Source: Candidatus Hydrogenedentes bacterium ADurb.Bin170
GTDB taxonomy: Bacteria; Hydrogenedentota; Hydrogenedentia; Hydrogenedentales; CAITNO01
NCBI GenBank assembly: GCA_002070275.1
Contig: MWCY01000018.1
Span: 1 to 56,346 of the forward strand
Direction of reading: 5' to 3'
DNA length: 56,346 nucleotides
The notes beneath the pieces were generated by a model. That model searched no databases, was not told the origin of the DNA, and saw only the letters and a list, made by a program, of their open reading frames with translations. Positions 23,450 to 26,038 of the stretch are shown one piece after another (the first letter of the stretch is position 1; every line of letters begins with the position of its first letter). The position numbers and the translations under genes were made by a program.

Positions 23450-25342
23450 GTGAGTCTCGTTCGCTTTGAAAATGTAAATAAAAGTTTTGGCGGAGAACCG
23501 CTCTTTTCTGATGTCAATCTCCGGGTGGAGGAAGGTGAACGTATCGCTCTTATCGGGCGAAATGGAACAGGCAAAACCTCCCTCTTCCGCTTAATCACCG
23601 GCGAGTCGGAAGCGGACAGCGGCACGATTGAACGCATGCGGCGCAGGCGCATCGTCTATCTTTCCCAAATCCCTGAAGTGGATCCGGCAAGCACGGTGTT
23701 TGATGTGGCGATGGAAGGTTTTCAAGACCTGATTCAGGAAGAAAAAGAGCTGCACCGTCTGGAACAAAGGCTGCATCATGACGAACCCGGCTTACTCGAA
23801 CTTTACGGGGAAAGACAGCATGCCTTTTCACTGGCGGGCGGCTATGAATTTCGCACCCGGGCACGTCAGATTCTCTTTGGACTCGGCTTTCTCCCCGAAG
23901 ACTTTGAAAAGCCTTTTTCAGCCCTCAGCGGCGGATGGCGTGCACGGCTGATGCTATCGCTAGCTCTTTTGCGTGAAGCAGATCTTCTGCTGCTGGATGA
24001 ACCGGAAAACCACCTGGACATGACTGCACGGGAGTGGCTCGAGACCCATCTGGCAGGCAGATCGGAAGCCATGATCCTGATCACGCACGACCGGCGCATG
24101 GTAAATGTACTGGCACATCGAATCCTGGAGATTGAAGGGGGCGCAGTAACCGCATTCACCGGCAACTATGATCGATGGCTGAAAGAAAAAAATCTGCGAC
24201 GGGAACAACAGCAGAAGGCCTTCGCCCGGCAGGAATCTTATATCCAGAAAGAACAGGCGTGGATCGATCGCTTCCGTGCCAAAAACACCAAAGCGAAACA
24301 GGCGCAGGCCAAAATGAAACGCCTTGAAAAACTGGAGCGCGTTGACGCACCGCCGCCGGAACTTGCCACAGCCGTTTTTCATCTGGAAAAAGCGGAGCGA
24401 AGCGGAGATATGGTTCTCGATGCCCGTTCGCTTACCATGGCATACGGAAACCGCTCTCTGTATCAGGATCTTTCTTTTTCGCTCTATCGCGGTGAACGAC
24501 TTGGCATTATCGGCCCCAATGGCTCCGGCAAAACCACCTTGCTTCGTCAAATAGGCGGCAAACATACAGGTCTCGGTGGCGACGTATGGATCGGACACAA
24601 CGTTTCCATCGCATTTTATGACCAGCATCAGGAGGCCATGGCGTCAGATATGGATGTGCTCAGTCTTATGCAGCAATCAAAGCCTGAATGGTCACAGCAG
24701 GAATGCCGCAGCTATCTGGGACGCTTTCTTTTTACAGGCGAAGATGTTTTCAAGCCTGCCTCCATATTAAGCGGCGGTGAAAGAAGCCGCCTTGCGCTGG
24801 CGCAGATGATTGCATCGGAAGCCAATCTTTTATTGCTGGACGAGCCTACCAATCATCTGGATATCGCATCCAGAGAAGCGCTGGAAAACGGACTCGCCAA
24901 TTATACAGGCACACTCGTCGTGGTAAGCCACGACCGCACACTGATCGACCGTCTGGCAACGCGCCTTCTTGTGGTGCAGGATGGCAAGGTGGAATCTTTC
25001 GCCGGAAACTTTTCAGAGTGGCGGCAGCGGCAGCTGGAAAAGAGCAGTGCAGCGGAAACAAAAACAGACAAAAATGAAGACGCGCGGAAAAAGAAAAATC
25101 TGAATGAGCGGGAGCAAAAAAAGGCACAGGAACGAAAGCAGCGGCGCGATCAGCGGGCTCTGCAGAAAATAGAAGAAGAAATTGCCGTGTACGAGTGCAC
25201 CATTGAGTCTTTTCACCAGCGTTTTGCAGCACTGGATCCTGCTGACTTTGAAGAGGCGCAGAAACTGCAGAAAGAATATGATGACCTGAAAGCGACGGTG
25301 GAACGGCTTTACGAAGAATGGGCAGCCATGGCAGAAGAGTAG
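23450..25342 (+). CDS. ABC-F family ATPase (Uup/YheS-like)
   Basis: A cytoplasmic duplicated ATPase of 630 residues without membrane segments, the arrangement of ABC-F translation factors that act on the ribosomal E site. The first ATPase has GRNGTGKT, ALSGGWRARLML and LLLDEPENHLD. The second has GPNGSGKT, ILSGGERSRLALAQM and LLLDEPTNHLD. The linker between them is rich in Lys/Arg/Gln. A charged coiled coil occupies about 535-630. It could be Uup-, YheS- or resistance-type; the sequence does not decide. The start is a GTG in a T-rich context with only a weak ribosome-binding site. Confidence 0.9.
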   Translation: MSLVRFENVNKSFGGEPLFSDVNLRVEEGERIALIGRNGTGKTSLFRLITGESEADSGTIERMRRRRIVYLSQIPEVDPASTVFDVAMEGFQDLIQEEKELHRLEQRLHHDEPGLLELYGERQHAFSLAGGYEFRTRARQILFGLGFLPEDFEKPFSALSGGWRARLMLSLALLREADLLLLDEPENHLDMTAREWLETHLAGRSEAMILITHDRRMVNVLAHRILEIEGGAVTAFTGNYDRWLKEKNLRREQQQKAFARQESYIQKEQAWIDRFRAKNTKAKQAQAKMKRLEKLERVDAPPPELATAVFHLEKAERSGDMVLDARSLTMAYGNRSLYQDLSFSLYRGERLGIIGPNGSGKTTLLRQIGGKHTGLGGDVWIGHNVSIAFYDQHQEAMASDMDVLSLMQQSKPEWSQQECRSYLGRFLFTGEDVFKPASILSGGERSRLALAQMIASEANLLLLDEPTNHLDIASREALENGLANYTGTLVVVSHDRTLIDRLATRLLVVQDGKVESFAGNFSEWRQRQLEKSSAAETKTDKNEDARKKKNLNEREQKKAQERKQRRDQRALQKIEEEIAVYECTIESFHQRFAALDPADFEEAQKLQKEYDDLKATVERLYEEWAAMAEE

Positions 25343-25446: not shown

Positions 25447-25475
25447 TTGACAAAATTATTCATTTGTGGTATTAA
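25447..25475 (+). promoter_or_regulatory. Near-consensus promoter of the twin-peptide unit
   Basis: TTGACA (25447-25452) and TATTAA (25470-25475) are separated by exactly 17 nt. This is the best sigma70-type promoter I found in the window. It would start transcription near 25482, about 110 nt before the first small ORF. Nothing else lies downstream except the two peptides and a terminator. Confidence 0.8.
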
Positions 25476-25492
25476 TACGGTATCAGATTTTG

Positions 25493-25565
25493 TTTGGAGT
25501 TAGTGGAAAGGGCGGTCTGTCGTTATAGACAGGCTCCTCAAAAGCGGGTTTGCCAGGGCAGATCC
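25493..25565 (+). ncRNA. Potentially structured mRNA leader of the twin-peptide unit
   Basis: Three pairings can be drawn. TTTGGAG (25493-25499) pairs with CTCCTCAAA (25534-25542) with a bulge. Inside it, 25514-25521 pairs with 25528-25535 around the loop GTTATA. Next, GGGTTTGC (25546-25553) pairs with GCAGATCC (25558-25565) around CAGG. A GAGTACTC palindrome follows just before the AGGAG. The helices are seen by eye; no known riboswitch consensus was recognised. A regulatory role is inference. Confidence 0.4.
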
Positions 25566-25593
25566 ATTACGAGAGTACTCAGGAGCAGCCGAT

Positions 25594-25722
25594 ATGAAAC
25601 ACACCAAACCGGTTACCCGTAAGCCGGAACTCTCACAGATATCCAATTTTCAGGTATTTAAGGATTTCCTGTTGAAGTCTCTGGATCAACTCATAGAATT
25701 TGTTTTTATTCTGACCCGATAA
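25594..25722 (+). CDS. Twin small peptide A (42 aa), unknown
   Basis: I do not recognise a family. The ATG has an ideal AGGAG (25581-25585) 8 nt upstream. The peptide is basic at the N-terminus, then carries PELSQISNFQVFKDF and a hydrophobic tail ending LIEFVFILTR. Its core PExxQISNFQV recurs in the next ORF, followed in both by spaced F and an [LI]-D-x-L pair. The shared residues are encoded with mostly different codons (ATA/ATC, TCC/AGC, AAT/AAC, GTA/GTG), which argues that both are translated and kept by selection. The TAA overlaps by one base an ATG of the next frame. Confidence 0.7.
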   Translation: MKHTKPVTRKPELSQISNFQVFKDFLLKSLDQLIEFVFILTR

Positions 25723-25739
25723 TGCAGGAGTCTCTGGCT

Positions 25740-25955
25740 ATGCGTAAACTTACACACATCAAAGTTTTAACAGAAACACCCGAACAGGCGCAGATCAGCA
25801 ACTTTCAGGTGAAACTGGAGTTCACCTCCTCCGTCATTGACCGCCTGCTTCTTGCCGACCGTCAGGTCGCCTGGAAGATCATCCCCGGTCAAGGCACCGA
25901 TACGGATACGGATATCACCGGGACAGATATTCCCGACAATATCACCCGCCTTTAA
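25740..25955 (+). CDS. Twin small peptide B (71 aa) with Thr/Asp-rich tail, unknown
   Basis: No family recognised. The ATG at 25740 has AGGAG about 9 nt upstream; an in-frame ATG at 25722 overlaps the stop of peptide A. The first half repeats the PExxQISNFQV core of peptide A. The second half diverges and is low in complexity, with GQGTDTDTDITGTDIPDN. Possible roles are a secreted or modified peptide with a shared leader and a variable tail, a metal-binding peptide, or a small regulator; none is shown. No modification enzyme or exporter is adjacent. A strong terminator begins 32 nt after the stop. Confidence 0.7.
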   Translation: MRKLTHIKVLTETPEQAQISNFQVKLEFTSSVIDRLLLADRQVAWKIIPGQGTDTDTDITGTDIPDNITRL

Positions 25956-25987
25956 TCTGAACCATTTTTTCGTTCCTTTTTGTGTTG

Positions 25988-26038
25988 CAGCGCATGTACC
26001 CATACTCTCGGGTGCATGCGCTGGTTTTTTGTTTTTTT
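25988..26038 (+). terminator. Strong intrinsic terminator of the twin-peptide unit
   Basis: A 14-bp stem with one G-U pair (arms 25988-26001 and 26010-26023) around an 8-nt loop. It is followed by G, six T, G and seven T. It isolates the peptide unit from the HAD gene downstream. Confidence 0.92.

Follow-up and report, generated by a model that had tools for sequence, protein, structure and literature searches.

A tandem pair of short peptides in Hydrogenedentota as probable precursors of a RiPP-like system

Two related small open reading frames, ORF1 and ORF2, stand by themselves between a promoter and a terminator in a 56,346-nucleotide stretch of DNA from Candidatus Hydrogenedentes bacterium ADurb.Bin170 (contig MWCY01000018.1; hereafter the window), which raises the question of what such a pair is for. 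A preliminary description had offered a signalling or toxic pair, small regulators, or modified-peptide precursors with a common leader, and the last of these is the option that the evidence favours. From the source genome (a 3.5-Mb draft of 164 contigs, Hydrogenedentota) and an order-level sample of 68 genomes, we consider that ORF1 and ORF2 are probably standalone precursor peptides of a RiPP-like system of Hydrogenedentota, whose path would run via an operon located on another contig. The unit had been described as self-contained, and its promoter, two small ORFs, ribosome-binding sites and terminator were all found in place (Table 1).

Table 1. Positions of the pair and of the related loci in the source genome
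Feature	Location	Strand	Details
Promoter TTGACA-17-TATTAA	window 25447..25475	+	-35 TTGACA 25447-25452; 17-nt spacer; -10 TATTAA 25470-25475; TG two bases 5' of -10
Transcript 5' leader	window 25476..25593	+	terminates in CAGGAG ribosome-binding site
ORF1, 42 aa	window 25594..25722	+	ATG 25594, TAA ends 25722; CAGGAG upstream; N-terminal motif MKHTKPVTRKPELSQ and predicted helix SNFQVFKDFLLKSLDQLIEFVFI
ORF2, 71 aa	window 25740..25955	+	ATG 25740, TAA ends 25955; AGGAG immediately upstream; motif MRKLTHIKVLTETPEQAQ, predicted helix SNFQVKLEFTSSVIDRLLLADRQ, AWK and T/G/D low-complexity tail
Intrinsic terminator	window 25988..26038	+	14-bp hairpin (25988-26023), then T-run
Array A, B, C, D, D	contig C12:22280-23334 (locus L134:3281-4338)		leader motif as in the pair; adjoins glycogen phosphorylase-like gene
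GNAT1-GNAT2-Rce1-like protease-ABC-ABC permease-RRE/SPASM protein	contig C89 (locus L173:4122-8447)		3' of mnmE-like gene

With ORF2 as query, tblastn detected relatives in 45-46 genomes, every one of them within the 68 of the order, and a profile search found more. ORF1 lay just upstream of ORF2 in all 45 genomes that were extracted, with a gap of 11-57 nt. Outside the order no relative of the pair was found, the profile searches of 386 genomes giving weak (E 9e-4 or worse) and partial matches, and the viral contigs, phages and plasmids searched held no relatives either. Nearly all named records with close homologues belong to Candidatus Hydrogenedentota, and a few bear no title beyond 'uncultured bacterium'. 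One record titled Nitrospiraceae (JAACEL010000547.1, locus L082) carries a pair of the Hydrogenedentota type; it corresponds to a genome of the same order and is probably misnamed. The peptides had been said to belong to no known family, and searches of Pfam, NCBIfam, PHROGs, PADLOC and PDB agreed with this, returning nothing credible. We found no paper describing them in the open-licence literature, where the papers joining Hydrogenedentota and RiPPs appear, by title and abstract, to be incidental co-mentions. ORF1 and ORF2 represent a previously unnamed short-peptide family across the uncultured phylum Hydrogenedentota, and the peptide set is vertically inherited and retained throughout the order.

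The signals around the pair are conserved as well. Both promoter hexamers and the 17-nt spacing are kept 5' of ORF1 in most of the 45 genomes, and a scan of the whole window with TTGACA-N14-TGNTATNA (at most one mismatch) gave a single match, the pair's own promoter. Unlike the promoter, the 5' leader diverges outside the genus in an alignment of nine family members, and an Rfam search of the unit found no family. Equivalent strong hairpin-plus-T terminators stand 3' of ORF2 in most relatives, a terminator scan giving some candidate, a few of them weak, in 35 of 45 genomes. The remaining open frames within 25447-26038 are overlapping and unsupported, and an alternative ORF2 start at ATG 25722 (77 aa) was rejected because the homologues begin at the later ATG. 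Upstream of the pair, an ABC-F type ATPase gene (window 23450-25342) lies in a neighbourhood that is met again in many relatives and seems to be the ancestral one; the ancestral site of the pair has an ABC-F gene on one side and, on the other, a Ser/Thr kinase-RsfS-GatBAC cluster in convergent orientation. The unit changes place among genomes, and the neighbouring genes therefore do not explain the pair.

ORF1 and ORF2 had been proposed to be real, related peptides under selection, and this was borne out. They have the core PExxQISNFQV in common, and their profiles match each other with E = 2.3e-12 over 34 columns, which, together with the keeping of the pair in 45 of 45 relatives examined, argues that the resemblance is not due to chance. 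Codon-level comparison shows purifying selection on both. Against the congener G001, dN/dS was 0.07 (0.042/0.624) for ORF1 and about 0.06 for ORF2, where dS (2.56) is near saturation. Eight other genome pairs gave values of about 0.03-0.2 wherever dS could be estimated, except for ORF1 of G013/G016, where dS is only 0.037. None of the three findings named beforehand as speaking against the pair occurred, since homologous pairs are present in 45 genomes of the order, frame disruption was not seen, and dN/dS is low rather than near 1. The C-terminal halves had been said to diverge, and they do so when one twin is compared with the other; across the phylum, however, either half is conserved.

The predicted structure of ORF1 is one helix at residues 18-41 (pLDDT mostly >90), and that of ORF2 is a less certain helix at 19-45 (pLDDT about 78) with a low-confidence T/G/D-rich tail predicted to be disordered; the start of each peptide is of low confidence. 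The linker between the N-terminal motif and the helix varies in length among homologues, which fits a separate recognition motif. A comparison of the PELSQISNF spacing with the lasso leader pattern PxLxxxGxF was dropped on account of this variable linker. In G017, ORF1 (locus L071:9774-9977) carries a GT/ST low-complexity insert of 20-odd residues between motif and helix, resembling the tails of ORF2. In G050 the pair is directly preceded by one more short ORF (locus L018:858-974) that has the leader motif.

The pair belongs to a wider family. Run over the order, the ORF1 profile gave many extra matches, through its first 16-19 positions, to further short frames, which often stand in tandem by twos or threes. 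The start that the twins share, MKHxRxITRKPxxAQ, also opens other tiny proteins of the same genomes. An N-terminal motif of 15-18 residues, M-K-H-x-[KR]-x-[VIL]-[ST]-[KR]-x-P-x-x-A-Q, was found on six peptide types with different cores, including a hydrophobic helix with a K-E end (type A), a core with two conserved Cys and LQARFCF (type B), one with APEVK... and NKNPQNP (type C), and one with RRADAF..FF..WRAW (type D). PExxQISNFQV, the core named in the preliminary description, is common to the twins, but the wider family is defined by the N-terminal MKH...P..AQ. In profile-profile comparison, ORF1 matched type A (E 9e-10, residues 1-16 only), B (1e-10), C (1e-9) and D (1.6e-6), and ORF2 matched type B (2.4e-8). 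Type profiles gave matches in 59/68 genomes for A, 54/68 for D, 43/68 for C and about 40/68, weak ones included, for B, and in most genomes they form a collinear array A(1-3)-B-C-D(1-2). A pattern for the leader-coding DNA gave three matches in the 3.5-Mb source genome, all family members, and its reversed control none. Of the nine members in the source genome, two are the window pair, five form the array on contig C12, and C8 and C52 hold singletons, so that at least seven lie elsewhere in the genome, beyond what had been described. The strong promoter of the pair was not found in front of the array, and a common promoter for the two was rejected.

The likely partner genes were recognized around 37 array loci, where the same strand downstream encodes GNAT1 (28/37), GNAT2 (26/37) and an Rce1-like protease (26/37), followed by an ABC ATPase and an ABC-2 permease, several of the loci without these genes being at contig ends. 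The Pfam matches are PF13420/PF13302 for the GNATs, PF02517 for the Rce1-like protease, which retains the EExxxR and H residues, and PF00005 for the ABC protein. The last gene encodes a fusion of about 600-680 aa made of an RRE, a SPASM domain and a C-terminal GNAT-like part; it matches the SCIFF, QhpD and PapB maturase models of NCBIfam, and matches CteB (5WGG/5WHY) with E 3.7e-21 in the RRE (3-104) and SPASM (337-433) regions. The radical-SAM CxxxCxxC motif was absent from all nine full-length fusion proteins checked, and neither GNAT1 nor GNAT2 conserves the canonical GNAT acyl-CoA P-loop. In the source genus and some relatives the array and operon are apart. On contig C89 of the source genome, most start codons of the operon overlap the preceding stop, and the operon is intact as far as the contig reaches; its end truncates the fusion gene, of which a matching 3' part lies on C66. 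GNAT2 was found in 57/68 genomes and the fusion protein in 62/68; matches outside the order were at E 7e-17 or weaker, mainly in the SPASM region.

A common leader, distinct cores, an RRE protein, a membrane protease and an exporter make up the architecture of a RiPP-type pathway. The precursors have a conserved N-terminal leader distinct from the core, the RRE protein is encoded with the precursors at the array-linked operon and unlinked from the window pair, and genes for a putative protease and exporter are present. The same peptides could instead be small structural or membrane-associated proteins that form an intracellular hetero-oligomer, with the motif as a docking segment and the RRE-SPASM-GNAT protein as a scaffold rather than a maturase. 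The single helices predicted for ORF1 and ORF2, the conserved helical cores, the vertical inheritance, and the lack of the radical-SAM motif and of a conserved GNAT P-loop would all suit such proteins, but a cytoplasmic scaffold has no need of the Rce1-like protease and ABC-2 exporter encoded directly 3' of the array, and we regard this explanation as unlikely.

Whether the window pair itself uses the operon is a further question, because the pair adjoins the operon in no genome. Nearly all pair-bearing genomes also have operon genes, and the four genomes more than 80% complete that lack both GNAT2 and the SPASM protein are exactly the four without any peptide type (Fisher p 6e-6). The association of the pair with GNAT2 alone has p = 0.002, a value without phylogenetic correction. 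All four peptide-less genomes come from one family, so the co-occurrence may reflect one event; its signal comes mainly from that family and must be discounted accordingly. The pair could derive from the same ancestral family and yet no longer depend on the operon, acting for instance as a small regulator or as the partner of an unlinked protein. It is always unlinked and is served by a strong, conserved promoter of its own. No pair was detected in several genomes with operon genes, and G050 (60% complete) lacks the operon but has the pair; against this, the motif that ORF1 and ORF2 keep is the one shared with the operon-linked peptides, and the operon genes accompany the pair almost everywhere. 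We consider independence improbable, the evidence being neutral on the small regulator proposed earlier, and from the shared leader and the co-occurrence we infer that the pair would use the operon despite the lack of linkage.

As precursors of a RiPP-like system, each peptide would consist of a leader of 15-18 residues followed by an amphipathic helical core, to which ORF2 would add its flexible T/G/D tail. The RRE of CteB binds its leader peptide (PMC8326336), which is bound as a strand (PMC8326336; PMC6231123), and the CteB-like RRE domain of the RRE-SPASM-GNAT protein would bind the Hydrogenedentota leader. Some RiPPs are acylated by GNATs (PMC13060382), and the GNAT proteins here may acylate or otherwise tailor the core. 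The Rce1-like membrane protease would then remove the leader, and the ABC-2 transporter would export the peptide. There may also be no chemical modification in the system at all, because the radical-SAM motif is absent and the GNAT P-loop is not conserved.

The system resembles several known ones. As in the SCIFF/ranthipeptide (CteA-CteB) and QhpD-type systems, it has a protein matching CteB in the RRE and SPASM domains, and its small precursors, which carry a conserved leader at the N-terminus, stay within one lineage instead of being traded. It differs from them in that the fusion lacks the radical-SAM CxxxCxxC and bears a C-terminal GNAT, the precursors lack six cysteines (there are none in ORF1 or ORF2 of the source genome, and only type B has two conserved), and the operon adds two GNATs, a protease and an exporter. 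With the selidamides, nostolysamides and lipolanthines it shares GNAT-fold enzymes beside leader-bearing precursors, and a conserved Lys near the helix end in types A, B, C and D and nearly all ORF2 (WK in 43/45) is a further likeness to GNAT-acylated RiPPs. However, no lanthionine synthetase was present among the operon genes read, nor was an NHLP/Nif11 leader with a lipidating GNAT found, the peptides have no family match in Pfam or NCBIfam, the acyl-CoA P-loop is not conserved, and many ORF1, the source genome's included, have no Lys near the end. ORF1 of the source genus does not fit a general rule of acylation on a conserved lysine. Epipeptide YydF/EpeX and SKF-type loci bring together a small precursor, a peptide-modifying protein of radical-SAM lineage, a membrane protease and an ABC transporter. 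The Hydrogenedentota system has the same four gene kinds, but it has many paralogous precursors, three GNAT modules, phylum-wide vertical inheritance and no intact radical-SAM enzyme. As for class IIb bacteriocins, no GG precedes the helix of ORF1 or ORF2 in the source genome, and C39, looked for in the operon ABC protein only, gave no Pfam match. We class the system as RiPP-like, outside the SCIFF and selidamide classes and probably also outside that of the two-peptide bacteriocins.

A toxin-antitoxin pair, a two-peptide bacteriocin or a cannibalism toxin could likewise be built of tandem short amphipathic helices, and the linked operon does have an exporter and a membrane protease. But the peptides are phylum-wide and vertically inherited, occur on none of the phages, plasmids or viral contigs searched, match nothing in PADLOC, Pfam or NCBIfam, and, as ORF1 and ORF2 of the source genome, lack a double-glycine leader, which makes a toxin very improbable; the toxic or signalling pair confined to the unit that had been suggested found no support. 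Most RiPP weapons have variable cores and the cores here are conserved, a point against the RiPP-like reading. Because the set is vertically inherited and retained throughout the order, a product that acts in the cell envelope or as an intraspecies signal is more likely for the RiPP-like system than a weapon.

Most RiPP-like systems have a patchy distribution and the character of weapons. The peptides described here, united by their leader, are by contrast a near-core trait of an entire uncultured phylum, and their maturase-derived partner protein has lost the radical-SAM motif. Peptides of 35-80 residues are easily overlooked by gene callers, and none of the family libraries searched contains these. 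We tentatively speculate that they form a new class of RiPPs, universal in most of the phylum, in which a catalytically dead radical-SAM maturase became an RRE-SPASM-GNAT leader-binding hub for 8-10 dispersed precursors per genome, and whose conserved helical products come together in the cell envelope instead of acting as antibiotics. The pair offers a way into a peptide system that defines a lineage, and a case in which to test whether RiPP machinery can be repurposed for housekeeping export.
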